Of a stretch of DNA of 64,000 nt, positions 1 through 61,926 are shown piece by piece. A program made the translations under genes and the position numbers. Under the pieces are notes generated by a model. That model was not told the DNA's origin. It ran no database searches and saw nothing but the letters and a program-made list of their open reading frames with translations. Numbering within the stretch: position 1 is the stretch's first letter; each line of letters starts with the position of its first letter. The DNA is from Diphasiastrum complanatum (taxonomy: Eukaryota; Streptophyta; Lycopodiopsida; Lycopodiales; Lycopodiaceae): contig CM055113.1 of assembly GCA_029204225.1 (NCBI GenBank), forward strand, positions 29,276,303 through 29,340,302, given 5' to 3'.

Positions 1-789
1 TAGGAGTAGGCCACTCATCACTTTGAAAACTAGGCAATGGAATTGCTTCGAGCTTGCCAAAACCTCCATCTGTTTGTGGCATATATAAAGATTCATAAAA
101 ATAGATACCACAATCTGCAAGCTCCTTTGGACTTCTTCCTCTGTATTGTAGCTTTCCAACATTAGAGTGAATCACGTCTAATATTCTTGCAACTGATTGT
201 GCAGGCCCCCATTCACTTATGCATGATGGATATAAATCTGAAAGAGAAAAACAATGTTGAAGCATTTAAATCATAATCTGAAGAGCATCAATAAAGAAAA
301 TCACCTATGATTGTTGTAGAGTGCATATGTTTTGATATACTTACAATTACATTTTTGATGATCATGAGGATTGATATCATGTACTTTGATTCCTGAATGC
401 ATATATACATGTTGTACTAAGTCTGATATAGATTGACCTCCCGGGGTAGTCTTAAACTCCAAGAGTTTTGCTTTCCAATAAGATTTGTAAGTCATTTTTG
501 CTCTTTTATTTTGTCGAAAATTGCCCTTTGATGATGGATGCAGCAATACCAATGAGTTCTTTGGATATTTTGTTGGCTTCCAGTTATCAGCTTCATCTTT
601 CTCATTGTAAAGAATCACAGACTCGATTATAGATCTGGGTCTCCTTGCCATTGCTATTTTCAGAGCTTGGGCGCCAAACATCTCTCTGATATGATGCTTA
701 ATTTCAATTTTTCGTATCACATTTAATCTAATGTGAATGCCAACATAGTCACAGTTACTACGTATACCATATTTTATGTAACTGTACAT
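1..789 (-). CDS. Unrecognised spliced gene, 5' two exons, cut by the window edge
   Basis: I do not recognise the product. Exon 1 runs 789 to 345 from an ATG; a strong donor (AATT|GTAAGT) and an acceptor (TTTCAG|AT) bound a 107-bp intron (238-344), and exon 2 (237 to 1) continues off the edge. The phase matches: a T at the end of exon 1 plus AT at the start of exon 2 make one Tyr codon, and both sides stay open, giving about 227 residues with no stop. The N-terminal half is basic (RKIEIKHH, MARRPRS, KRAKMTYKSYWK); exon 2 is acidic to neutral, with GRSPKELADCGIYFYES. No zinc knuckle, retroviral catalytic motif or membrane segment is seen. The intact splice structure argues for a real gene, but it could be the captured or domesticated gene of a mobile element. 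Confidence 0.55.
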
Positions 790-793
790 ACTG

Positions 794-905
794 TATTTTT
801 ATAACTGTAACTAGTATAGTTAGAAAATTTCATTATACTAACCAGCATAGTCAAGTAAATTTAACTTAAGGTAGTGACGTCAGGAAGATTAGCACGTGTC
901 GGGTA
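794..905 (-). promoter_or_regulatory. Candidate promoter elements upstream of the left-edge gene
   Basis: Directly upstream of the ATG at 789 are a palindromic TGACGTCA (875-882, bZIP/CRE-type) and a G-box core CACGTG (893-898). A TATA-like TATAAAAATA (794-803, minus strand) is so close to the ATG that it may not be used with it, or the true start may lie further in. These are motif matches only. Confidence 0.3.
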
Positions 906-2922: not shown

Positions 2923-5310
2923 AAAAGTTTGGAAGAGCTTGGGCCGATATGTTATCACACTTGATCAAGGGAAGATCATCGTCTTTGATGCACTTTAGCT
3001 CCATGATTAACCTCTTGATCCAAAGCACCTCTTTAGTTGTTGTAGTGAGTGCTTTGTACTCGGCCTCACAAGAAGATAGAGATATGGTATCTTGCTTCTT
3101 TGAAAGCCAAGACACAAGATTGCCACCAAGAAAGATAGTATATGCATTAATGGACTTTTGATCAATTTTATCACTTGCAAAATCGGAATCCGAATGGCCA
3201 ACAATGGTTAGATCTTCATTCTTGTACAATAAACCATAATCTTGAGTAGAAGATACATATCTTAGAACTCTCTTGGCCATCTTCTAATGTTGGATCTTAG
3301 GATTTTGCATAAATTGACTCAATTTGTGCACACAATAGCTCAAATTGGGTCTAGTGATAGTAAGCCAAATTAAGGAGCCTATAAGACTCCTATAAAGTGT
3401 GATGTCCTCGAAAGATCTTTCATCACCTTTAATAGGGTCTTTTACATGTTGCTCCATGGGAGTATCTATGCCTTTACAATTTTGCATATTGAATTTTCTC
3501 AACATAGAAAAGACATATCTAGATTGACAAATAAAAGCATACTCTTCATGAAAATCAATCTCAAGGCCTAAAATGTAATGGATCTCTCCTAGATCTTGCA
3601 TTTTAAATTCTCCTCCTAATGCATCCTTAGTTTCTTGAACTAGCATCAAACAACTTCCACTAAGAATAATGTCACCTACATAGATTAGAAGAATGACAAT
3701 ATTACTACCATCAAACTTTAAGTACATAGAAGGATCATAGTCACTAAGCTCAAATCCTAATGAAAGTAGAAAGTTGTTGAGTCTTGAATACCATGATCTA
3801 GGTGCTTGCTTCAAGCCATAAAGACTTCTAAATAGCAAACACACCTTAGATTTATCCTTGATGAATCCTTGAGGTTGTTCCATGTATATGTCCTCCTCAA
3901 GATAACCATTCAAAAAAGCGTTGGAGACATCAAGTTGATATAATTTTCACTTAAAAAATAAGGCAAGAGAGATTCTGATTCTTATTGTCACCATCTTTGC
4001 TGTAGGAGCAAAGGTTTCTTCATAGTCAAGGCCATGTATTTGTGCAAAGCCTTTAGCACATAATCCTTGGTATTGAGGGCTTCTTGGACATCTTTGGGCT
4101 CCTCATGAGAAACAAAATAAGCATAAGTGGAATCCAGATCCACTTGTTTTTCTTTTTCATCATGAGTGAGCCTCTTAGGCTCGGATCTCTCCCTCATGGA
4201 TCTTCTAGGAGTGAAAATTCGAGGACTTTCATCTTCAAATCTCGACCCCTCCATATGTTGATTGTCTTCAATAACAAAGGTGTTAGATTTTGAGGTTGCT
4301 TGATCTCGGTCCCTCCAAGATTGGACTTTTCTTCTTCATGAAAAACTACTCTCTACTTTCAATTACTTTAGAAGTAGAGAGCATGTAGATTCGATAGGCT
4401 TTCTTGTTGGATGAATATCCAACCATTACTCCTTTGCTTGCACTGTTTCCAAGGGAATATGGACAAAGCATATGCATCCAAATATTCTAAGGTGATCAAC
4501 CTTAGGTTTCTTTAAATAAAGTGCTTCATATGGTGACTTTCCTCCAAGTGCAACATGAGGGAGTCGATTGCAAAGATAGTTTGAACAATTGATGGCCTCA
4601 CCCCAAAAGTCTTTTGGCAAGGATGCCTCAATTCTAATGGTTTTGGCACATTCACACAAGGTTCTATTCTTTCTTTCAGCCACCCCATTTTGAGATGGTG
4701 TATATGCACAAGAAAACTCCCTTTTAATGCCTTCAAGCTCACAATAATCATGAAATTTATTGGAAGTGTACTCACCACCTCCATCACTTCTAAGAATCTT
4801 GATCTTGTATGAAAATTGCTTTTCAACTAGAGCTTTGAACTTTAGAAAATAGTCAAACACCATAGACTTTGAAGCTAGAAGATATAACCAAGTAAAGTAG
4901 CACCACCCTTGCTCTTTGAAGATGAGAAGTGCACATCCGAGTGTATGAGCTCCAATGGATGTGTAGTCTTAATAGATGACTTTGAAAAAGGCTTCTTATG
5001 AGATTTAGATATGGCACAAGCCTCACATGTCTTGAAATTCTTGGAGATAAGATTAGGCAAGCCAATAGCTTTGGCTTTCTTGACCATGGACACCATAGAA
5101 CTATAGTTAGGATGCCCCAACCTTCTATGCCAAAGTTTCTCCAAAGAAATATGAGAAGCAAAAGCACCATCACAAGAGTTAGCATACTCTTTGGGATCAA
5201 GCTTGTAGATTCCACCATATCTAGACCCAAATGCAAGGATCTCATCATGCTTCTTGATTGTACATGTATCAACATTGAAATTCACATCTAGTCCACTATC
5301 AAACATGCCC
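2923..5310 (-). pseudogene. Ty1/copia element A: 5'-truncated, decayed pol
   Basis: Reading right to left: pre-integrase (LWHRRLGHPN) and the integrase N-terminus (IHSDVHF) at 4,875-5,306; integrase core with LRSDGGGEY and NGVAERKNR at 4,426-4,863; a linker at 3,988-4,254; reverse transcriptase at 3,284-3,913, with LYGLKQAPRSWYSRL and the active site changed to YVGD (normally YVDD); RNase H at 2,923-3,280, ending prematurely after SAQALPN by a deletion. Gag and protease are absent; homology stops near 5,306, where unrelated sequence begins. At least four frame breaks separate the pieces. The protein is clearly of the same family as element F at 41.8-45.7 kb. Confidence 0.85.
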
Positions 5311-5430
5311 GGGTGCTTGAGAAAAAAATCGAAAAAAAATGTGTCTGTCTAAAATTATGAAGCCTAGTGTCTTCAAGTGTGGCATTTGGAAAGTAGATGC
5401 ATAATAAAACCACATTTGTAGTTTGATTTA

Positions 5431-6083
5431 TGTGAAGGATTTTATATCATTCAAGATCCAATCCATGTCCCTGATCTTTGGTTACAATAAGGAACAAACC
5501 AACAATCCTGCCAATGTAGAAAAATCAGCATCTACATACAAAATGAGATGCAAACTCTAAGAGATACTGATCAAACATGAAAAAAAATATAAAATATGTT
5601 TTCTGTCCATACAATTATAGTACCCTATTGTATTTCACACGTGTGGAACTGAAAATAGCAAAATATGAGCATTCTACACACAAGATTGCAAGATATCACC
5701 AAGATAGTGCACCAATGAGTAGTAGAACCCAAAGAGAACCATGTATAATGATAAAATGAGAGAGAGAAGAGAGAAGATATGTCTCTCCACGAGTTATATC
5801 ATTTTATAGAGTGTCCAAACACTATTTGGCCACTTGGCTTTCCCTCCAAAATGTAAACCCTAGTATTTTTGGGTCTAGATTCAATGTACCCAAAGTTCAA
5901 ATTTGAATCTCTCTCAAACTCGACTACCATCTTTCCCACACTTTCAAAAAGTGTTTATTGAATGTATTTAAACTAATATAACTTCAAAAAGTTTATCTCT
6001 AAGTCTAAAATGAGTTTTGGCCTCTTATTGACAATTTACCAAAATATGACTAAACTAGACTAAACTAGTTGAAATCTCTCACA
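5431..6083 (-). repeat. 3' LTR of copia element B
   Basis: The LTR starts TGTGAGAG at 6,083, just after a purine tract (GAGGAGGGAG), and ends CA at 5,431 on the minus strand. It is the partner of the plus-strand LTR at 61,272-61,926: similar along its whole length, with scattered substitutions, so older than D's LTR pair. The base run immediately outside it, read on the minus strand, is TAAAT, identical to the five bases outside the LTR at 61,272. That marks the two as ends of one insertion. Confidence 0.85.
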
Positions 6084-9000
6084 CTCCCTCCTCAACTAGT
6101 TTTGGCATAGTTTTGACAATAGAACTTTGATCCAACTTTAGAATGATCTCCATCCTAAGTATAGATCTCCTTTCTTAGGTTCTAAAGTATCTTTCATAAT
6201 TGATATAGAGAATAGTGTCCAAATTGGATGCTTCACTATTTCTTACATCAATTTTACACATCAAGATATACCTAGAACATAAAGAACCAAATAGAATGTA
6301 AATGAAATGATTCCTCCATGCTTCAAACTTTGAACTCTCTAGAAAATTACAGCAACCAAACAATAAATATGAGTGATGACCATTTGCTTGCTTGTCTCCT
6401 CCAACTTTGTCCTTTCTTGATATGTCTCCACCATAAAACTCCATGAATGAGCCTCCATCTCCATCTTGCCACAAGATATCATCAACACTTGATGACTTGG
6501 CCATGAATGAATGACATAATGAACCTCCATTATCTTCATTTCCATCAGCAAAACCAGCCAAGAATGCAGGTACAACTCCAACAATAAGATATCGCAAGAC
6601 AATATAGCTAGTTTGTCCATATCTTGACAATTTGCACACATCCACATGAAACAGCTCAAACATGAGATAAAGTAAATAAAGTAAACTTGAACAACACTTC
6701 CTTGCTGCTCCTTTGACCTTACTTGAGTCTTCATACACCTGCAAAAACATATCCATAACATCTTTGCCAAATAACCTTTTTTTGATGCTCTTGACTAGCT
6801 CCAAATTGCCACCTTTCCTTTTGTGTTGTTGAACCCCTTTGAGACCAACCTCTTGATCTTCAACTTGACCATCAAAGTCATTGAACAAACTTTGTTTTCC
6901 AGATCCATTACTTGCTTTTCCAGTATGAAAACCATGAGAACCAATATCCACTTGCATAGCATCATCTACACAAGAAAATTCTCCAAAACATGTGAGTAAA
7001 GCAAAGTGAGTCGCTTCCACTTGCTTACCTTTCTCTTGATCATCAAAGATATCAAAGATATGAATATCTTCAAAACTGAACCTCTAAAAATACTCCCTCT
7101 CAAACATATGATCTAGATCCACTAAGATCTCATCAATGCTTGATCTCAAATTTCCACAAAAGGTTGGTGAAAACAATGTCACCAATGTCACCATCATAAA
7201 TCAAAAGATAGATTCCAAACTTTCCATCCAACATGAAGTAGAGTAGGTGAATATGAGTATCAAACCTAATCAATCCAGCTTTCTTGAGTCCATAACAAAC
7301 CTCAATAAGATCACCAACGAGATCTCCCTTGCCTGGAAGATTGCCTCTCGATTTGCTCCATGTAGTCTTCTCCAACCAACCTTTTGCCATCTTGATCATG
7401 AGTGATCAATTCATAATCATAGAATCCTTTGAGTTGATGAAGAGATGTGAGATCCATGCCTTGGATCTTTCCAAGAACCAATCTTCCATTGCTCTTTCCT
7501 TCATAAGACTCCCTCTTAATGACTGCATCATAAGAAGTAGAAACCTCAAAAACATTAGAAGCCATGAAAAAAATCATTAGTACCTTCAACATAAGGATGA
7601 TTGAAGTACTCTCTTTTTTCAAACAAGAACTTCTACTCAATGATTTAGGTAATGACTCATATGATAATGATTCTTCCTCACTATCATTCACAATCAAAAT
7701 ACATCCTACTTTGAACTCTTCACATACTTCTCTTCTTGACTTGTGACTATCTCCCCCACCAAGTCTCTTGATAGAACCATTTGATCTACTCTCTTTGTGA
7801 AGACATGTGACTCCACTTGCTGCAAAAATGACTTTCTTGGACTCATCACAAAAGAATGTAGAAGAACCACCTCCTTCATAAATGCACCTAGCAACATCTT
7901 TTTCCATATGATCAAAGAAATCATTAACAACAATCTTTTTCAAGGAAGAACCTTCACCACCATTGATGAAGTTAGCTCTTTCCTTACCTTTTGCATGCTT
8001 GCACTTTCCATGAAGAACCATTGAAACACCATCATTATCCTCAAAACTAGCCAAGTTAGCGCAAAGATGAACATCTCCAAGAAGCATATTAGATCTTGAC
8101 CTAGATCTAGCATAAGAAGCTTTTTAGAATTTGCATAAGATCCACCAATCTTATTGATGCTAAAAGGTAACTTTGGAAAGTTGAGACCAATCTCCTTTTC
8201 CATTCCATCCTTTTTGTTAGCCATAACAAAAGCATCAAGCTTGAAAAGTCTACCTTGTTTATTGCCCCTAGCAACCAAGATTACTTCCTTTGTAATGAAA
8301 CAAGCATCACCACCAAACTTTACCATGTATCCTCTCTCTATCATTTGACCAACACTTAGCAAATTCTTTGAAAGTGAAGGAATGTAAAAAACACCATCAA
8401 GTCTTGCTTTCCTATTAGTAGAGAGACAAATAGGAATTGAACAAATACCTTCAATCACACACTCACCACCATCGGCCATGTAAATTGCTTTCTTGGCTCC
8501 ATCATGAGTGACCAAAGAAGTAAAGAACTCCTTGTGACTAGTCGTGTGAACTAGCTCCACTATCAATCCACCATGAATCTTTGTCACCTTCACTTGATAT
8601 TGGACTTGAAGAACACATCAAAAGAGAATCACCACCACCTAGATCCTCATCATTAGTAGTAAAGTTGATTTGCTTGCTACCTTCATCTCTTTGCGTCTTC
8701 AAACATTCATTTGCAAAATGCCCTTTGATTCCACAATAAAAGCATTCAACTTAGACTTATCTTTCTTTTTGCCAAAAGAGGAAGTCACACCTTGATCTTT
8801 TCCTTTAGACCATTTGCATTTGCCTTTGCCCTTGAACTTGCCTTTGATGGACATAGCCTCCTCTTCATATTGAGATGTCGATGTAGATCCACCTCCTCTT
8901 GATTGAAGCCTATACTCCTCATTCACCAAGATCTCTTGCAGATCCACAATACTTGGCAAAGTCTTTTGAATAGCAAAACTTTGAACAAGATTAGCATGAC

Positions 9001-9478: not shown

Positions 9479-12225
9479 TATGGAACATTTGTTGAGGAAG
9501 AATGTAAATCCGAAAGTGGATTTACAAGTGTCTACATCTCTTGCCCAATTTGCATCTGTGTAACCACTGAGTAAATTGAGTTTGTCATTGCCAACTGCTC
9601 CACAACAAATGCAAAAGTCCATAGTAGCTCGAAGATATCTCATGACTCTGATAAGAGCCTTCCAATGTGTTATACTAGGATTAGTCATAAACTGACTAAG
9701 AGAGCTGACTGCAAAAGCTATGTCTAGCCTAGTACAGATCATGGCGTACATAAGAGATCCTATAATAGAACGATAAGAATACTCACGCATCTGCTGCTTC
9801 TCATGAATTGTTTGGGGACACTGGTCCTTTGACAATTTGAGACCTGGTTCCATTGGTGAAAAAGCTAACTTGTAATTCATCAGATTATATCTGACTAACA
9901 TGTTGTAGATGTACCTCTATTGTGTAATGTAGACTAGCTTTTGGTTTTTGTCTCTGTGGATTTGTATACCAAGGCAGAAATGAGCTTCGTCCAGATCGGT
10001 CATGTCGAATTCTGAAGATAGCATTGTCTTGGCTTCTTTTATCGGATCAGTACTATTGTTGAAAAGCAATGTATCATCCACATATAAAATGATAAGGACA
10101 AAAGGCTGCTACACTACTTTGAAATAAACATTTGAATCTGAAGAGCTAGGTGTGTAGTCGTGATCAGTAATGAAAGTATTGACCCTTTGAAACCATGATC
10201 GAGCAGATTGCTTAAAGCCATAAAGTGTCTTATGGAGTTTATACACATGATTGTATTTACCCTCGATAATATAACCTTTGGGTTGCACCATGTAAATGTC
10301 TTCTTCGATAACTCCATTGAGATATGTTGTCTGTAAATCCATTTGATGTATTTCCAAATCTACTGTAGCGACAAATGATAGCAAAAGTCGAATAGGAGAA
10401 TGCTTGACTATTGGACTGAAGGTCTCAATGTAATCGACATTGTATACTTGAGAAAATCCTCTGGAAACAAGTCGTGCATTTCTCCTGTTGATGCTTCCAT
10501 CTGCATTGTACTTGACTTTGAAAATCCATTTGCAATCAACTATGTTTCTTCTAGCAGGTAATTCGACAATTGTCCATGTCTAATTTTTGATAAGAGATGA
10601 ATACTCTTTATCCATAGCTTCTTTCTAGAGATCTGAATCAGGCTGACTAAGTACCTCTTGGACAGTTGTCGATTCTTGAACAAGGTAGGCTGCAAACACG
10701 TCGATATACCTTTTGGGTGGTCTGCTAGTCCTTGATGATTTCCTAGGTAATACAAGAAGTTGATCATTTCCATCATACTATAGTTGTCGATCTGCAACAT
10801 CATCATGTTCTGATCCACATTGATTTGTTGTTCATCAAAAGTAGAAGAGCTTGGACCTTCAATGGGAATAGTCGACTAAGGAACTGGAAAGCTCAATGCG
10901 TCAGGAGAATGTGATAGGTCGGCTACATGGGAACTGCCCTTTCCTTTGAGGTCTTGAAACTGATCTTCGATGAAGATGACATCCCGGCTAGTGAATATCT
11001 TTGACTCGATGGGATCGAAAATTGTAGGCTTGATCTGAAGTAGTGTAGTTGATGAAACCACATTTGATACTCTGGAAGTCGAGCTTCTTTCTGAGATCAT
11101 GAGGAATCTACGCAAAAGCAGTACATCCAAAAACTTGTAAGTTTGATAAAGAAGGTCTGGTACCTGTCCAAACTTTGAATGGTGTTTTGTCTGAGAGACC
11201 TTTAGTAGGACATATGTTCTGAATATAGGTAGTTGTTGAAACAGCTTTAGCCTAGAAGTACTTTAAAAGTGTCGCATGTGATAACATGCACTTTGCCGAT
11301 TCAACTAAGATTCTGTTCTTTCTCTCAGCAAGACCATTTAACTGAGGTGAATAGGAAGTAATGTATTGTTGCTCAATGCCATTGTTAAGGCAATACTCCT
11401 TGAATTCGATGTAGATGTATTCTCCCCCATTATCTGACCTCAGTGCTTTGATTCGTTTGCCAGTTTGATTTTCAGCACGCTCTTTGAATCGTCTGAATTT
11501 GATGAAAGCCTCTAGTCTCTATTTAATGAAATAAATAGCTATTCTTCTGGAGAATTTGTCAATAAAAGTAATGAAATACTTTGCATCTGTATGAACAACA
11601 TCTAATAGATCTTTTGCTACATGCCTATGGTTTGATCTAAAAGGAATCCTAGTCTGCTTCCAAAAATACAGCTATGACAGACAGGGAGATCGACCATACC
11701 AGAAGGATAGTCGAGATCGAGAACCATTAGAGGAGTTTTGAGCTCCAAAAAGACCCTTTAAGAATTCGTGCAAGATGTAGTTTATATTATTAACATATTA
11801 TAACACTAATACTTTTGACTTGCCATATTCGTAGCTCAAAAGTATGTCATCTAGCATATCATTAGAAAGCCCTTGTCAAGCGCTTTCCAATGCACCAAAC
11901 TCCGCTAAATTTGGACTTACCACTAAAAAGTTATGCCATTTTTAGTGTGGAATCAAAATGTGGTCTCAAAAAGTTGATTGGTCCATGTGTAAGAAGAAAT
12001 TGAGAAAAAAATATAAAAAGAATCTTTACAAAGGGTCTTTTTTGGATTTAGAACTCCTCTAATGCATTGATTGTCTGGACATGTTCAAAACAGATGCATA
12101 ATTCAAGTGTCCTAAGCGATGATGCCAAAGTAATGCTTTATTGACTAGAACAGAGGTTTTCATGACTTGACTGAAGCATCGACAAAAGAAAAGCCTAACT
12201 TGTCGCAAGAGGATTTCCTCAGGTA
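9479..12225 (-). pseudogene. Copia element C: pre-integrase to RNase H, split at a breakpoint
   Basis: This is a second copia family, distinct from A, B, D, E and F. Right to left: pre-integrase (LLWHHRLGHLNYAS, about 12,070-12,180); the MITE at 11,730-12,059; integrase (11,100-11,730, with ALRSDNGGEY and LNGLAERKNR); linker; RT (9,950-10,550, with EIHQMDLQTTYLNG and LYVDDTLLF); RNase H up to FFLNKCSIS at 9,479. There are many stops and frameshifts. The coding sequence stops in mid RNase H; its continuation (WNSHKQSSIA...) is found in the plus orientation from 62,435. Gag, protease and 5' LTR are not present to the right of 12,225. Confidence 0.8.
11730..12059. mobile_element. 330-bp MITE inserted in element C
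   Basis: Terminal inverted repeats of about 35 bp: left end GAGGAGTTTTGAGCTCC then AAAAAGACCCTTT; right end, reverse-complemented, GAGGAGTTCTAAATCC then AAAAAAGACCCTTT. The element is flanked by TA on both sides (11,728-11,729 and 12,060-12,061), which fits a Tc1/mariner-type insertion, though a longer TSD cannot be excluded. It interrupts the integrase region of element C and carries no coding capacity. A lone end of the same family lies at 1,072-1,111. Confidence 0.75.
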
Positions 12226-15760: not shown

Positions 15761-16415
15761 TGTGAAAAATACAGATCCTAAGTGGATCTAAACTCCAAGA
15801 TCATTGGCTTGAATGCTTGCACTCCAAACTACATAAGCTAGGAATTGGCAACACATTCTATGCTACCTAGAATGCAAAGAACTTGATCAAAAAGCATTTA
15901 CCACAAATGGAAACTTCCATAAACATCAAGTGCGGCCCAAAATAGCATTATACAGTCCATAATACATCAGCCTACCACTTTTGGAAAGCACCTAAGATCA
16001 TACACAATAGCTTGAAGACAATACACACAATAATGCTCTCAATGGAGGAAGAAACAATGACAATGATCTATTGATCTCAATGAAGCATACAAAAGGTTTC
16101 TCCAACCTGTTCTCCACGACTTCCCTACTATTTATGGATGAGGAAGATGACTCTCTCTCCTCTCTCTAGAAGGTACTTGACCCTAGATATTCCCTATATA
16201 GAAAAAATAGCTAAAAATGGCTTATATGACCAAAATACATCAAAATGGTCTCATTTTGAAGGGTATGAAGTTTGACACTTCATCATACTGAAAAAATACA
16301 GTAAATAAAAACATTGTGGCCTGGTTCACACGTGCGAAACTCCAGAACCAAAACTATTTACAATTTTAGCCAATTTAGGCCTCAAACTAGCTAGGAAATG
16401 TTGACAATTTTCACA
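15761..16415 (-). repeat. 3' LTR of element D
   Basis: 655 bp. Starts (minus strand) with TGTGAAAATTG right after the purine tract GAAGAGGGAG and ends ...TTTTTCACA. Contains the palindrome-like CGCACGTGTGAACC, a G-box-like block also seen in LTRs of the related elements. The gag-pol stop codon (16,411-16,413) lies within its first five bases. Confidence 0.95.
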
Positions 16416-21536: not shown

Positions 21537-22191
21537 TGTGAAAAATACAGATCCTAAGTGGATCTAAACTCCAAGATCATTGGCTTGAATGCTTGCACTC
21601 CAAACTACATAAGCTAGGAATTGGCAACACATTCTATGCTACCTAGAATGCAAAGAACTTGATCAAAAAGCATTTACCACAAATGGAAACTTCCATAAAC
21701 ATCAAGTGCGGCCCAAAATAGCATTATACAGTCCATAATACATCAGCCTACCACTTTTGGAAAGCACCTAAGATCATACACAATAGCTTGAAGACAATAC
21801 ACACAATAATGCTCTCAATGGAGGAAGAAACAATGACAATGATCTATTGATCTCAATGAAGCATACAAAAGGTTTCTCCAACCTGTTCTCCACGACTTCC
21901 CTACTATTTATGGATGAGGAAGATGACTCTCTCTCCTCTCTCTAGAAGGTACTTGACCCTAGATATTCCCTATATAGGAAAAATAGCTAAAAATGGCTTA
22001 TATGACCAAAATACATCAAAATGGTCTCATTTTGAAGGGTATGAAGTTTGACACTTCATCATACTGAAAAAATACAGTAAATAAAAACATTGTGGCCTGG
22101 TTCACACGTGCGAAACTCCAGAACCAAAACTATTTACAATTTTAGCCAATTTAGGCCTCAAACTAGCTAGGAAATGTTGACAATTTTCACA
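21537..22191 (-). repeat. 5' LTR of element D
   Basis: 655 bp, identical to the 3' LTR except for one base in the CTATATAGGAAAAA / CTATATAGAAAAAA tract. Transcription should start in this LTR and run toward lower coordinates. Confidence 0.95.
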
Positions 22192-35707: not shown

Positions 35708-37629
35708 TCAAATCCTAAAAGAAATCCTATGACCAATGAGGTTCATAGTAGGTGCAACGCTTACACCCAACTGGGCAAAGGTTCTGATCAACTCTTGCCG
35801 AAATCTATATACATCATCAGGAGTATACGACTCAAGAGTGAACTGTCATTACAAAATACAAGAATCAACAAATTACAAACAATGATAGTAATAAAATATG
35901 AATCAGAATGAAATGAACTACAAATGAATAGAATATTACCTTTTCAATATCTACATCCGTTTGTAAATTACACCATTCAAAAAATAGCTTCGTATTGTAC
36001 AGGACGAACCATGCACATCTAAAAGCGTCATTTTGTTGTACACACTGCATATATAGAACAAAAATTAGTAATATTATGATAGAAATTTTATTTATGCTAT
36101 GATGATACATTTGAATTAAAAAAGGAATACATGCATATCAGAGATAAATTGAATATACCTTGAGAGATTTAATGGTTATATCTCCAATTGAAGTTGCCAT
36201 TGTCGGTATTTCCTGAACGACATCATGAAGTAGAGAATCAAATTCTCTATGTGTATTTGCAACTGAGTTTAATTTTACACATAGAAAATTTGATACTCCC
36301 TCCTTATTTATCTTTACAAAAAGAATGTTTAGGCTCCAATGCCGACTGCAACAACCAAGATACAAATATCGTTAAATTCATATTTATGAAAAAATTCCGT
36401 TCTTATTAAAGCAATGAGGCATGCAACAATCCAGATTAAAGCAACAAAAACAAAAGAGCAATCCTTACTTAATGGAATCAAATCAAATTTTGCCATAGGA
36501 CTACAGTTGATAAAATAGACAGCCTTCTCAAAATTGGCTTCTTTCGCCTTTACTGCTCCCATGAAAAATGGACTAACTACAAAAACTGTACCATGGGAAT
36601 CGAAACGAATACTATTCTGCAAAAAAGAAACTCCGGCCTCTACTATTGCATTTGAAATTTCTGAGGTCTTATCTTTTAGCTCGGCACAAAATTTGGGACC
36701 TAATCTAAAGTTTCTACGAGTATTTGGAAGAAAAAAATCAAAAAAGTTGACGAGAAGATCAATTTTGTTAGCTAGGTAGGCCTCGTATTGATTATAATGG
36801 TCAGAATAAAAGAAAACCTGGGCTGGATCGTATGGAATTCTCACAAAAAGATTATGTACAGGAGTAGAAACATAAGTGGAAACAATATTTACATATTTCT
36901 CTGTTATTTTGTCTAGCTCCTCTTGGGTAATCAACAATATTTACAGATTTCTCTGTTATTTTGTCTAGCTCCTCTTATTTTGGTGATGAAATCTGCTGAG
37001 GAGCTGGACGAATAACATGAGGAGGAAAGGGTGAAGATTTTCGATCTGAGTCAGATTCTCCAACATCTGACTCAGAGCTTAGGAAGACACGGGGTCTCTT
37101 GGCCTGGATAACTCTAGGAGGAAGGGAAGTAGCCTGGCCTTCAAGATCCAGCCTTCTTGGGGACAGGCTGCTTTCTCTTCCTCCTAGAGGTAGTAGGCAA
37201 ATCGATTCTATCCAGAGGCAGGTATCTGGAGGTACTGGCATTATCAACATGCAGACCATAATATCTGTCTCGAAGCCTTTTGAGAATGACGAAATCCTTT
37301 GGCATGATGGTGACACGCTTACCATGCACTGCCAAAAGACACGAATCCTCAAAAAATTGGGACAAAAAATTTTCTATAGCACCCTGTAAGGCCTGCATGG
37401 CTGTCACGGCAAAACGAACATCCAGCCCAAGTGACAAAGTGACATTCTGTACAGATCGGCCGAAAGGAGCTCTAGGGATCAACAATTCAGTTGATCTCTG
37501 GAGTTTTCTGATCTCCCTCAGCCAGACCTGCTTCCTACCACGCCTATGGCCAGTACCAGGGGAAACATGAGAATGGGATGGCTATACAGTGGTGATGGCA
37601 TGGGCGGTGGATTTGGTCTTGGCCATCAT
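35708..37629 (-). pseudogene. Histone H3-fold / Ulp1-type cysteine protease fusion gene, now broken
   Basis: Starts ATGATG at 37,629; the N-terminus AKTKSTA mimics the H3 tail ARTKQTA. TAG follows at 37,582-37,584. The same frame then gives the H3 fold (about 37,575-37,266): WLREIRKLQRSTELLIP, DVRFAVTAMQALQ and KRVTIMPKD, with no loop-1 insertion. A +1 shift near 37,150 leads into a Ser/acidic linker with a basic AKRPRV. After a TAA (36,975-36,977) and a 52-bp duplication comes a C48 Ulp1 domain: VFVVSPFF, KFDLIPL, intron 36,346-36,468, RHWSL (His 36,339-36,341), LNSV where LDS is usual (catalytic Asp to Asn), intron 36,045-36,158, VQQNDAFRCAWFVLY (oxyanion Gln and Cys 36,015-36,017), intron 35,843-35,939, last exon to TGA at 35,708. 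Introns 2 and 3 are in phase with GT/AG ends; the exon 1-2 phase is off by one. Known Ulp1 enzymes cut SUMO from targets; chromatin targeting by the H3 fold is inference. Confidence 0.8.
36883..36976 (-). repeat. 52-bp tandem duplication inside the fusion gene
   Basis: The block CAATATTTACATATTTCTCT onward to CTAGCTCCTCTT (42 bp) recurs 52 bp to the right with one mismatch. 52 is not a multiple of three, so the duplication shifts the frame between the linker and the protease domain. Confidence 0.9.
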
Positions 37630-37945
37630 TCTTGGAAGAAAAAAATTAACAAAAAGAAGTTTGAACAAAACAAAAGTGGATCAGAACAAAAAAATTTGCG
37701 ATGAAAGGGCGCTTGAGATCGATACTAGCACTGAATATCGGTTTCGAGCGCAAGATCTACAGAGATTATTTGCAGAAAAGAGATGCAAGTTGAAAGCGAT
37801 ATTGCACAGCAGGCGGTATCGGACTCGAGCGCACTGTGAGAGGGCGGAAGCTTGAAAGATGAAAGAGCGCGCCTGAGAGCGATATCGAGAGCTAAAAGCA
37901 AAAATTTTGTGAAAAAAAATGAAAATTTTGAGGACTTATATATAC
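37630..37945 (-). promoter_or_regulatory. TATA box and leader of the H3-Ulp1 gene
   Basis: Minus strand TATATATAAG at 37,934-37,945 lies about 305 bp upstream of the ATG. The leader between contains repeated CGATA and GCGCTCGA words that also occur, in the other orientation, in the two plus-strand leader modules at 38,206-38,540 and 38,812-39,115. The three leaders look like copies of one sequence. Confidence 0.6.
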
Positions 37946-39115
37946 GAAATTTTTGTGCGTGTGAAAAGACGGCCGAGACACATGTCGCCAGATGATTAGA
38001 CCATGTGGAATGTCCGTACTGACAATGATGACCCAATTATGAGGCCACGCGGGTTGAGCAACGTGCGCAAATCCCTAATCGACATGTGTCATTCTTGCAC
38101 GTGACAGATGTCAAATCAATCATACTAGGTATGGCGCATTAATTTGGCCAATCACAAGTCGACACGTGTTCCTTCGCCACTCCTCCACACGTGCAAATTT
38201 TTTTTTTTAAATGTCTTTTTGGGCTCGGATTTTCAAGCAAATTCACGATGGCTTTGCCGGATCAAGCGCGCCGCTTGCTTTCATTACATCTCGTTGGCTA
38301 TTATGCACCTGGATCCGATACTGCATCGTTCGGTATCGCATTCGAGCGCGTCTCGCAACTCTTTTCTTTTCTGCTCATTGTTCTTGTGCTCGGATCCGAT
38401 ACTTTAACTTCAAATATCTCTCTCGAGCGCACGTTGACTTGGGGTTTGCGCCTGAGAACGATATTTGGAACTTCAGTTCTGTTATTTTTGTTTAAAATAT
38501 CTAATTATGAATCTAGTTTGCTTTTTTTCTTTAATGAATTTTTGCAAATTTTTGCACATGTGAAAAGACGGTCGAGACACGTGTCGTCAGATGACTAGAT
38601 CACGTGGAATATTCGTACTGATAATGATGACCCAATTATGGGGACACATGGGCTGAGACATGTGCGCGAATCCCTTATCTACGTGTGCCATTCTCGCACG
38701 TGACAGATGTCAGATCAATCATTCAAGGTACGACGCATTTATTTTGGCCAATTACATGTCGACACGTGTTCCTTCGCCACTCCACATGTGCAAATTTTTT
38801 TATATAAATAGGTCTTTTCGGCTCGGATTTTCACGCAAATTTATGATTGCTTTGCCGGATATCGATTTCAACGCTTGCTCTCATTACATCTCATTGACTA
38901 TTATGCGCTTGGATCCGATACTGCATCCTCCGGAATCGCTTTCAAGCGTGTTTCGTATCTCTTTTCTTTCCTGCTCGTTGTTCTTGCACTCGGATCCGAT
39001 ACTCCAACTTCCAATATCTCTCTCGAGTGCTTGTTGCCTTGACGTGCTTGTCTGACCTGGGGTTTGCACTTGAGAGCGATATTTGGAACTTCAGTTCTAT
39101 TATTTTTGTTTAAAA
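37946..39115. promoter_or_regulatory. Tandemly duplicated G-box-rich bidirectional promoter module
   Basis: Two copies of a ~600-bp unit (about 37,946-38,545 and 38,546-39,160). Each begins TGTGAAAAGACGG and has a cluster of CACGTG-type sites (GACACGTGTTC and GCACGTGACAGATGTC in both), a TATA region and a leader with GGATCCGATACT twice. In copy 2 TATATAAATA (38,801-38,810) is intact; in copy 1 it is degraded to a T run. The G-box block is bounded by inverted AAATTTTTGCACATGTG / CACATGTGCAAATTTTT in copy 2, and a minus-strand TATA (37,934) faces a plus-strand TATA, so the layout is symmetric. Predicted to fire the H3-Ulp1 gene leftward and the gene at 39,116 rightward. Confidence 0.6.
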
Positions 39116-40553
39116 TGTCTAATTTTGAATCCAGTTTGCTTTTTTTTTTTAATGAATTTGGTATTACTGATAGTGGAGGCATTTTCTGAGATATATCTCA
39201 GATTTAAGTCCCTGCTCAATAATCCGTTATTCAGGTCTCAGAATAAAGACATGATTCATTATCAAGACATGGTGGCACTCGACAAGCATATCTACAAAGC
39301 TAAGCTTGACAGAATGTTTACCAAGTTACATAATGATTTCAAGTCTGTAGACGAGTGCCCAATTCATAATAAAAAATGTAGATTTGTTGATTTTCATTCT
39401 ACTTTTGTTTTTCTTCCTTTTCTTAAATATTTTTGACGATTCGAACTCTATGCCCTCCACTTCTAAAGCAGCTTCTTCTAGTGGTACAAAGTCTGAAAAG
39501 TCAAAGATTGTAGATATAGATACCTTTTTTATTGACACGAGTGTTAATTTAGATGATTGTTCTGATTTTGATCTTGCTCAAAATAGGACTACTTTTATAG
39601 GCCCTAGAACACCCACTACCCTTTTTCCTTCTGATAAATCTTTGATCACTTTGCCTACTTATAATATATTCTTTTTTGACAATATCGGATATATCGGATC
39701 TTTTTTACTTCACTGAAGCTGAGACTCTTTGCATTTTGAGCAAAGAGCTTGATGAATTTTCGATATAATTGATTTTGATGTTGATGATCTTCTCCCTGGT
39801 TTGACGATGTACATAATGATAAGTTTTATTCAGGGAAAGATTGTTTGAAAATGGTTGTGGAGGAAATGTGCAACAAAGAAGATGATCTACCTTTTGAGGA
39901 GGAGTTTCTTAGAATCCAAAGTCAACTTGGTTTTCCACAGCCAACTGTCTATTCACCAACAATATTGACATCAAAAGATGGACATAATATTGATGGAGAG
40001 ACAGTAATCAGAGAAGACAAAGCCAAATGCGTAAGTTTTTGTCTCTTATCAAGTACTAGTAGATTTGTTATGTCAGATTATATACTAGAGCTTACTTTGT
40101 TTTTTATCATTTCAAGAAACAATTTTCCTTGATGATTTTGAAATTCATCAAGGAGGGCAGAGATCTTCTGTGGGAAAATATTCAAGAGATCATGCACTCG
40201 GGCACTATCTAAAGTCCTTCAAGAATAATGAGATAAGTGTTGCCCATTCAAAGTTTCATCAACATGGTGAAACTATGATTATGGCAATCAAGGCACTGTC
40301 TCATTTTCTTGGAGGACATAATTTTAATAAGGTGCATAAAATAATTTTTGTAAAGAAAACTATTGCGGTTAAAATTTTAGGATATGGACCAATAAATTTC
40401 ATGCTCAGATCATCTCATTTTGCAGTGCATGCTGCTTACGTTGATCTGAGTAAGCATGAAAACTATGAGCTATTGGATCCATACGAAAGAAGAAAATTGT
40501 TGCATGATTCTAAGCTGCAACTTTCATTGGAAAAAAAATCGAAAGCAAATTAG
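39116..40553 (+). pseudogene. Unrecognised gene, divergent partner of the H3-Ulp1 gene
   Basis: ATG at 39,116 (MSNFESSLL) follows the second promoter-leader module. A T-run shift moves the frame to AFSEIYLRFKSLLNNP and DKHIYKAKLDRMFTKLHNDF; then come a Ser/Lys/acidic segment (STSKAASSSGTKSEKSK), a DFDVDDLLPG block, a KEDDLPFEEEFLRIQSQ block ending at a good donor (AAATGC|GTAAGT, near 40,030), and after an acceptor near 40,122 a long open stretch (KYSRDHALGHYLKSF, YGPINFMLRSSHFAVHAAY, DPYERRKLL) to TAG at 40,551. At least three frame breaks; exon phases do not all match. No motif recognised. CPIHNKKC could bind metal but is isolated. The acidic first half and basic second half are the only overall features. 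Likely a dead gene of the same unit. Confidence 0.45.
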
Positions 40554-41583
40554 ATACTGGTGAATTGTACTTTGTAAATATTTTTATTTAATATACAAAA
40601 TTTTATTGTGTGTCTATAGCCTAATGACTTGTATAAATTTGCATGCTTTTTAAAAAAATTTATAATCCGTCGATTTTGTATTATGACGAATTTGCATTCA
40701 TCTGTAAAACCATTGAAAAAGTTGTAGTATATAGCTGGTTTTTGTGCTAGTCCCGCCATGTTGTGTACTTTTATGAAATGTCGCTCTTGCTTGCCAATGA
40801 GATTTTTCCATTCCTTGCGATGACCATATGCTAAGACTTCCACTATTTCTTGCAAAGAATGTCGAATGATATTGTAATATGTGCTGCATGTCATAAAAAC
40901 ATAATCTAAATCAGTACCAAAAGTATTTAATTTAATTGCACATATTTGTCTATCATAGTGTAAAATCAAAATATTACCATATAATGTGTTATATGATCAA
41001 CACCCCATGCACTCTAAACTGCATCCACAAATTCATTGGTTGTTTTATGTATCATTTGAACATCAGTATTTGGAAATTTATCTTTTCTCAAGTATTTCAC
41101 CATGTTGTCTAACTTTTTCCAAACTTCTACTTTGTGTATACGAGTAAAACCTTCTTCTTTGAAATCTTGAGTTGCTGCAATAATTTCTTTCCAAGCCGTG
41201 TATTGAATCTTAAATTGTTTGCCAGAATAATTTGATAAAAATCTTCGAGCTTTAGATCCTCCAATGCTCGGCTTGCGTGGAATATTTCCTGTTTTACCTG
41301 ATAACTTGTCATCTTTTTTTATTTTAACGTGGCCTTTATGTAAGCCTGCTTTGGACAACACATCCTCTAATCTGGAAATAGCTTCCTTTGCAAAGGCCTC
41401 TGGCTCGGAATTTCATGCAAACAAGATGTGAAGATATATTATTTTTTCTATAATACGCACCTTTGCATGCAATGTACAGATATGAACATTTCATAGAGGA
41501 ATCGGTAGTACAGGTTTCCAATTAGGATCTTCTCGATCTCTTGATATTCCTGTACTCCTTGTCATGTCTTTTGCTGTTTTCAT
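40554..41583 (-). pseudogene. Unrecognised gene converging on the previous one
   Basis: Candidate ATG at 41,583 (MKTAKDMTRS) leads to EDPNWKPVLPIPL and a stop; a neighbouring frame gives KCSYLYIACKGAYY...SSHLVC (Cys-Cys-His-Cys, zinc-finger-like but unassigned). Further down, 41,361-41,014 encodes a basic segment (GGSKARRFLSNYSGKQFKIQ, then YTAWKEIIAATQDF) and 40,969-40,550 a 139-codon stretch (GTDLDYVFMTCSTYYNIIRH, YGHRKEWKNLIGKQERHF). At least two stops separate the pieces; some may be introns. The 3' end nearly touches the 3' end of the plus-strand gene. The phrase NWKP is shared with the left-edge gene (DNWKPTKYP), too short to prove a relation. Could be part of the same unknown element. 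Confidence 0.4.
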
Positions 41584-41639
41584 GTAGTACAAACAAAGGT
41601 GGTTAGAGTTAGCGCTTCAAACAAAAACTTTACACTTGT

Positions 41640-61271: not shown

Positions 61272-61926
61272 TGTGAGAGATTTCAACTAGTTTAGTCTAC
61301 TTTAGTCATATTTTGATAAATTGTCATTAAGAGGCCAAACCTCATTTTAGACTTAGAGATAAACTTTTTGAAGTTATATTAGTTTAAAATACATTCAATA
61401 AACCCTTTTTGAAAGTGTGGGAAAGTTGGTAGTCAAGTTTGAGAGAGATTCAAATTTGAACTTTGGGTACATTGTATCTAGACCCAAAAATAGTAGGGTT
61501 TACATTTTGGAGGGAAAGCCAAGTGGCCAAATAGGATTTGGACACTCTATAAAAGGATGTAACTCATGGAGAGACATATCTTCTCTCTTCTCTCTCTCAT
61601 TTCATCATTATACATGGTTCTCTTTGGGTTCTACTACTCATTGATGCACTATCTTGGTGATATCTTGCAATCTTGTGTGTAGAATGCTCATATTTTGCTA
61701 TTTTTGGTTTCACACATGTGAAATACAGTAGGGTATTGTAATTGTACAGACAAAAAACATATTTTATGGTTTGGTTCATGTTTGATCAGTATCTCTTAGA
61801 GTTTGCATCTCATTTTATATGTAGATGCTGATTTTTCTACATTGGCAGGATTGTTGGTTTGCTCCTTATTGTAACCAAAGATCAGGGACATGGATTGGAT
61901 CTTGAATAATCTAAAATCCTTTACAT
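61272..61926 (+). repeat. 5' LTR of copia element B, displaced
   Basis: 655 bp, from TGTGAGAGATTT to AAATCCTTTACA. TATAAAAGG near 61,549 is a likely TATA box; the TTTCACACATGTGAAAT palindrome is the counterpart of that in other LTRs. The five bases before it are TAAAT, identical to the flank beyond the LTR at 5,431. It should be the 5' LTR of element B, whose body is 52 kb away on the other strand. Confidence 0.88.

Follow-up and report, generated by a model that had tools for sequence, protein, structure and literature searches.

A divergent histone H3 followed by a Ulp1/C48-like protease in four exons is encoded on the minus strand, at 37626-35750, of a 64,000-nucleotide stretch of the Diphasiastrum complanatum genome (the window, C22:29276303-29340302 in a 1.745-Gb genome of 5176 contigs). 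The two parts form one fused gene, here called gene C, which is carried on a mobile element, and the window copy is one member of a high-copy family of that element. Gene C of the window is composed as follows.

37141..37626, minus strand: H3-like tail and histone fold (Pfam Histone 2.4e-24, PDB H3, translation)
36979..37160, minus strand: linker with an acidic/serine stretch (VFLSSESD...), in another frame here and in the H3 frame in better preserved copies
36469..36940, minus strand: first protease exon part (EELDKITEK...DLIPL), the homologous part being in the H3 frame in L006, L012 and L027
36346..36468, minus strand: intron 1 (GT..AG), out of phase in the window copy
36159..36345, minus strand: protease exon 2, containing VKLNS, where Asn takes the place of Asp, and the His box RHWSLNILF
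36045..36158, minus strand: intron 2 (GT..AG), in phase
35940..36044, minus strand: protease exon 3, with the Cys box VQQNDAFRCAWFVLY
35843..35939, minus strand: intron 3 (GT..AG), in phase
35750..35842, minus strand: start of exon 4 (FTLESYTPDDVYRFRQELIRT); element homology stops at 35750

An H3 fold on this strand had been reported in a preliminary description, which proposed a profile search of that part. The ORF at 37581-37141(-) matched Pfam Histone PF00125 with E = 2.4e-24 and 86.4 bits against a cut-off of 26.4, which assigns it to histone H3 by that measure, and it matched H3 chains of the PDB at about 1e-21. The histone fold itself spans 37279-37554, and translation starts with MAKTKSTA at 37626. 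The local copy, as had been stated, is broken. Its lesions are a TAG stop at codon 15 (37584-37582), a TGA with a change of frame at 37143-37141, a 44-nt repeat at 36881-36976, the out-of-phase intron 1 and the break at 35750.

The three GT..AG introns, two of them in phase, were also found as described; introns 2 and 3 keep the frame and intron 1 does not. In the copy on C577 intron 1 is in phase, and the frame there reads ...IPYENNRHWSLKILF. The reading of the downstream part as a protease held for the exons and for the His box and Cys box of Ulp1 type, but not for the C-terminal residues translated in the preliminary description, which lie past the break, 35750 being the last position homologous to other copies. 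Against the PDB, the window-copy protease gave three weak matches with no Ulp1 chain among them.

Genome-wide, the H3 part gave 7405 first-look candidates, and 150 were scored, all with E <2e-72 and at least 80% identity. The corresponding numbers were 5052 (150 scored) for the C48a part, 9077 (150 scored) for one gene A exon, and 1490 and 1588 (40 scored each) for the two element ends. The number of copies is given as an estimate, in the thousand range, because the first-look counts are loose and scoring covered 150 matches for each gene part and 40 for each end. Among the 150 scored H3 copies are matches on every contig from C1 to C23.

These copies show the two parts to be in one frame, as the preliminary description had supposed. 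Among 30 loci examined, L006, L012 and L027 have a single frame of 369-372 aa that leads from MARTK through the H3 part, the RRKRK patch and the acidic linker to the end of the first protease exon. In L017, L019/L020 and L025/L026 the frame is open into the first protease exon; L006 and L012 are duplicates of each other, and L019/L020 and L025/L026 are likewise paired. Eleven of the 150 scored H3 matches, some of them duplicates, have an open frame of at least 350 aa with no internal stop. The H3 and C48a lists, which come from separate queries (150 each), yielded 36 same-strand pairs within 3 kb at near-constant spacing and none on opposite strands. Two adjacent genes misread as a fusion were considered and rejected, since frames in other copies are open across both. 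Beyond the break point of the window copy, reading continues in the copies on C2 and C577, with one frame change in each. The suggestion that intact relatives may exist was upheld in part: better preserved copies were found, but stops or gaps interrupt the four-exon model in all 29 copies, every row having at least one stop. AlphaFold2 on the fused ORF gave a mean pLDDT of 32 and was not used as evidence. At C22:29722687, about 409 kb away, lies a 99% duplicate that equals the window copy in its number of stops and gaps, probably through segmental duplication.

A search with PF02902 had likewise been proposed. The joined protease pieces of the window copy matched it only weakly (E 0.0094, 16.2 bits), below the cut-off of 20.7, whereas at least two of the nine copies scanned passed, L016 with 25.4 bits (E 1.5e-5) and L028 with 20.8 bits; these two belong to Peptidase C48 by profile cut-off. 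L004 also fell below it (15.7 bits), and no C48 match was seen in L014 and L024. By elimination L003, L006 and L008 match at E<=1, as do six of the eight aligned copies in all. Searching the genome itself with PF02902 returned three places, and a PDB profile search with the protease gave one weak, unrelated chain and no Ulp1 chain.

Residues were assigned at what we take to be the Ulp1 catalytic positions. Counted by eye with duplicates included, the Cys is present in all 20 rows that have exon 3 and the His in 19 of 21, being lost in L019/L020. The His, Gln and Cys of C48 are largely retained, with the right spacing. Where Ulp1 has Asp, all 19 rows counted have Asn, so that the full His, Asp, Gln and Cys set of Peptidase C48 is lacking and protease activity is uncertain. 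The Cys box has CA in place of CG.

The remainder of the element in the window is as follows.

35750..41613, minus strand: element remnant, homologous to c577 3485-8781
37947..39159, no strand: non-coding spacer of two tandem units of about 600 bp, 83% identical
39173..40553, plus strand: gene B region (approximate), broken and divergent to gene C (ORFs 39074-40553)
40550..41412, minus strand: broken 3' part of gene A, which may encode a transposase (ORFs 40550-41412), homologous to the c577 3485-4534 region

By blastn the remnant is 92% identical to the C577 copy over 39173-41613, 81% over 38546-39178 and 86% over 35750-38541. Its right part is broken at 35750; on the left, a Copia element appears to have cut into it at 41614. 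The gene order is A (+), B (-), the spacer, C (+, H3-protease) and then a stretch with small ORFs. Homologous gene B ORFs occur in the C577, C12 and C6 copies. When the gene A and H3 lists (150 each) were compared, 16 same-strand pairs were obtained, with H3 always downstream (1.5-4.9 kb), and two opposite-strand pairs within 10 kb.

The element measures 8.4-9.9 kb and has two gene-like regions besides gene C. Its left end is CATTAGAGAAAATATGGGCCCAAAGAGGGCC and its right end, reversed, is CATTAGAGAAACTTAGAGCCCGACGAGGGCC; together they form 31-bp imperfect inverted repeats with 80.6% identity. From a left-end set of 15 loci, the reference and its duplicate (L045, L046) were excluded, and the start points of the other 13, which by eye have 10 distinct flanks, all agree to within 2 bases. 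The right-end set, again 15 loci less the reference and its duplicate (L060, L061), showed the end in 13 of 13 (8 distinct flanks by eye), with unrelated sequence beyond and an altered base in one pair. Complete copies were recognized on C577 (9920 bp, with a duplicate at C8:13.17 Mb), on C123 (about 8.4 kb, with a duplicate at C237), and at C16:9.96 Mb and C8:41.48 Mb (about 9.2 kb). Predicting the far end of the element at six loci missed it at three. Common ends, inverted repeats and high copy number show carriage by a plant mobile element, which the preliminary description had mentioned for Ulp1 domains. The large DNA viruses also named there fared differently: a giant-virus or phage origin was rejected, no relative being found in IMG/VR (three queries) or among phages.

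Several repeats were seen near copies of the element and elsewhere in the window. A methyltransferase-like ORF (L034:2953-4874) was considered as a part of the element and rejected, since by eye only the C10/C117 duplicate pair has it near a listed H3 match. The segment is a dispersed repeat beside the C10 copy with 1446 first-look candidates; its ORFs, in which ParB- and methyltransferase-like features were recognised by eye (VIGGSHSAEARR, ADIPYG), gave no Pfam match. Positions 11-628 of the window are a diverged relative (67.6%) of the 3' part of the element, and the ORF at 301-798(-), which by eye is similar to c577 10427-10720(-), represents a small conserved ORF D. In L070, near 1688, the right end of one element gives way within a few bases to ...GACATTAG, which may mark a preferred or nested site. 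In the window, the 655-bp direct repeats at 15761-16415 and 21537-22191 (99.8%) surround minus-strand Copia-like ORFs and look like a recent Copia nested in another Copia. A further 655-bp pair, inverted and 94.5% identical, lies about 55 kb apart at 5430-6083 and 61272-61926.

By transposase profile and target-site duplication, the element matched none of the superfamilies with which it was compared. No transposase family was matched by Pfam in the gene A or gene B pieces scanned; the best stray match was PF05289 (9.1e-5, under its cut-off), and gene B matched no Pfam family above cut-off. The target-site duplication of VANDAL/MULE elements is 9 bp. None of that length was found in the four complete copies, where no target-site duplication was clear at all; the C16 flanks agree by eye at six of nine positions. 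The gene A pieces scanned gave no MULE transposase match either. For CACTA, Transposase_21 was not matched in the gene A and B pieces, the ends read CATTAG and the four copies lack a 3-bp duplication; the gene A segment EWHLAGDLKTLK...GANSK..CLYCM resembles what we take to be the second-Asp block of CACTA transposases. Neither a hAT transposase by Pfam nor, in the four copies, an 8-bp duplication was found.

Among known elements, three kinds from plants or fungi come closest to it. VANDAL MULEs with VANC/KIU (Arabidopsis, eudicots) are likewise multi-gene plant DNA elements with one Ulp1-type gene, as far as the consulted text of PMC13317346 goes, and share tandem-repeat non-coding regions and a proposed anti-silencing role (from the consulted parts of PMC5735166 and PMC10398659). 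Unlike VANDALs, the present element has inverted terminal repeats, an H3 fold within the Ulp1 protein and no MULE transposase match. A Dothideomycete hAT with a captured H3 resembles it in having hundreds of H3 copies in a 9.5-9.9 kb DNA transposon with inverted repeats; that element is fungal, has a hAT domain and an 8-bp duplication and its copies were mutated by RIP, and a protease fusion is not mentioned in the portions of the source consulted (PMC6710886). CACTA elements with Peptidase_C48 in ORF2 are plant elements that also carry C48 in a second gene, and the terminal repeat start CACTAGTAGAAA resembles CATTAGAGAAA (sections of PMC8978399). Unlike CACTA, the element described here ends in CATTA, without a Transposase_21 match and without a 3-bp duplication in the four copies; the word "histone" is absent from the main text of the CACTA paper so far as that text was available (PMC8978399).

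Among protein matches no fused relative was present in those listed (best 120 of 964; best 120 of 6557), and the 23 sequences examined among them were single, tandem or otherwise repeated histones. The protease part (residues 135-514) found no relatives among 2532 candidates. This absence is weak, because element proteins are often masked before annotation. No H3-Ulp1 fusion appeared among the papers listed by the literature search, in line with the preliminary description, which knew of none; the nearest reports are of the H3-carrying fungal hAT and the Ulp1-bearing VANDALs (PMC6710886 and PMC13317346, as consulted). In the literature consulted, histones, Ulp1 proteases and anti-silencing proteins are each reported from transposons, separately.

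The spacer between genes B and C is a putative promoter region. A one-off 600-bp tandem of the window copy was rejected, as the spacer is doubled over at least 300 bases in 11 of 30 loci, three duplicate pairs among them. The longer copies on C577, C10 and C2 have one spacer unit or part of one. Short motifs clearly above shuffles were not found in it. In VANDALs, VANC targets form tandem repeats, according to the parts of PMC5735166 and PMC10398659 consulted; the doubled spacer resembles these VANC targets in layout.

The histone fold resembles canonical plant H3 (45-47% identity in an alignment to three H3 proteins), with KRVTIMPKD and a loop 1 of H3 length. Unlike canonical plant H3, it has a shorter tail without K9 and a C-terminal fusion. 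The tail mostly reads ARTKSTARAI where H3 has ARTKQTARKS. With the customary numbering of H3 residues, 20 of 23 distinct copies have K at position 4. At position 9, 18 of 22 distinct copies have A, three have V, S or P and one has K, so that K9 is absent from 21; this had gone unremarked in the preliminary description. The tail is also too short for K14-K37 and hence lacks K27. As K9 is kept in only that one copy, the tail does not carry the K4, K9 and K27 set of histone H3. The linker stretch VFLSSESD looks like a SUMO-interacting motif and is a candidate for one, but it is no more conserved than the linker around it. The loop 1 of CENH3 is longer. Capture of a CENH3 was rejected on this ground, the loop 1 found here not being CENH3-like, and the centromere marking raised earlier receives no support, scored copies being spread over C1 to C23.

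Constraint was estimated from 29 copies less six near-duplicates, with badly aligned copies dropped for each part and ranges obtained by codon bootstrap. The dN/dS was 0.41 (0.25-0.65, 23 copies) for the H3 fold, a value biased low because the loci were chosen by H3 similarity; this bias affects the protease values much less. These were 0.55 (0.39-0.82, 17 copies) for C48a and 0.41 (0.26-0.66, 13 copies) for C48 exons 2-3. For the linker (0.82, 0.50-1.36, 20 copies) and the tail (0.65, 0.31-1.36, 22 copies) the range includes 1, and constraint on the tail was not seen. Keeping duplicates gave 0.40 for H3, 0.83 for the linker, 0.57 for C48a, 0.55 for exon 2 and 0.26 for exon 3; keeping badly aligned copies gave 0.71 for C48.

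A histone fold without K9 or K27 and a SUMO-protease-like domain are together what would be expected of an anti-silencing factor that enters chromatin. The nucleosome entry and local de-SUMOylation proposed in the preliminary description are plausible. We give about even chances to gene C encoding such an element-coded chromatin factor, one that counters silencing and is VANC/KIU-like in function but histone-based. The gene C protein would be the element's own chromatin factor. Its H3 part would assemble with H4 into nucleosomes, supplying an H3 with no K9 or K27 to be methylated, and its protease part would bind SUMO and strip it from silencing proteins on the element. In this way the element, and especially its often doubled non-coding promoter spacer, would stay accessible for the mobilising genes, and the protein would act as an anti-silencing protein like VANC/KIU of VANDAL transposons. 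The SUMO E3-like PIAL2 and MOM1 function in plant silencing (as given in the consulted part of PMC6084981). No description of anti-silencing by an element's own K9-less H3 with a SUMO protease was found in the literature searched. A bolder claim, of a group of plant transposons that may form a new superfamily and have their own K9-unsilenceable H3 welded to a SUMO protease, with silencing-proof nucleosomes and removal of SUMO from the silencing machinery, is held tentatively and would on balance be doubted.

The protease may instead be active and aimed at chromatin by the H3 fold, with a role in transposition itself, for example by removing SUMO from transposase or repair proteins. MULE, CACTA and Ginger1 elements repeatedly carry Ulp1 domains, for which a transposition role is suggested in the consulted parts of PMC2836005 and PMC8978399, and the dN/dS of the protease indicates constraint. 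We nevertheless consider this unlikely, as a transposition role alone leaves the missing K9 and the histone fold unexplained. Passive capture of H3 by transduplication, with the protein hitch-hiking and having no chromatin role, appears less probable still. The Dothideomycete hAT elements captured and amplified H3, mostly truncated or mutated (PMC6710886, part consulted), and each of the 29 copies here carries a lesion; against this, several copies have H3 and protease in a single frame, and dN/dS is below 1 for both. Least probable is an inactive protease whose sole use, attached to the histone, is to bind SUMO or a UBL, for although Asn at the Asp position and Cys-Ala for Cys-Gly would fit it, His, Gln and Cys are largely kept with the right spacing, and Asn functions in the triad of papain-type proteases.

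If the proposed anti-silencing role of gene C is true, a histone joined to a SUMO protease, with K9 missing, would let a selfish element shape its own chromatin directly. What Ulp1 domains do in plant transposons would become testable, and a natural K9-less H3 would have spread to high copy number.
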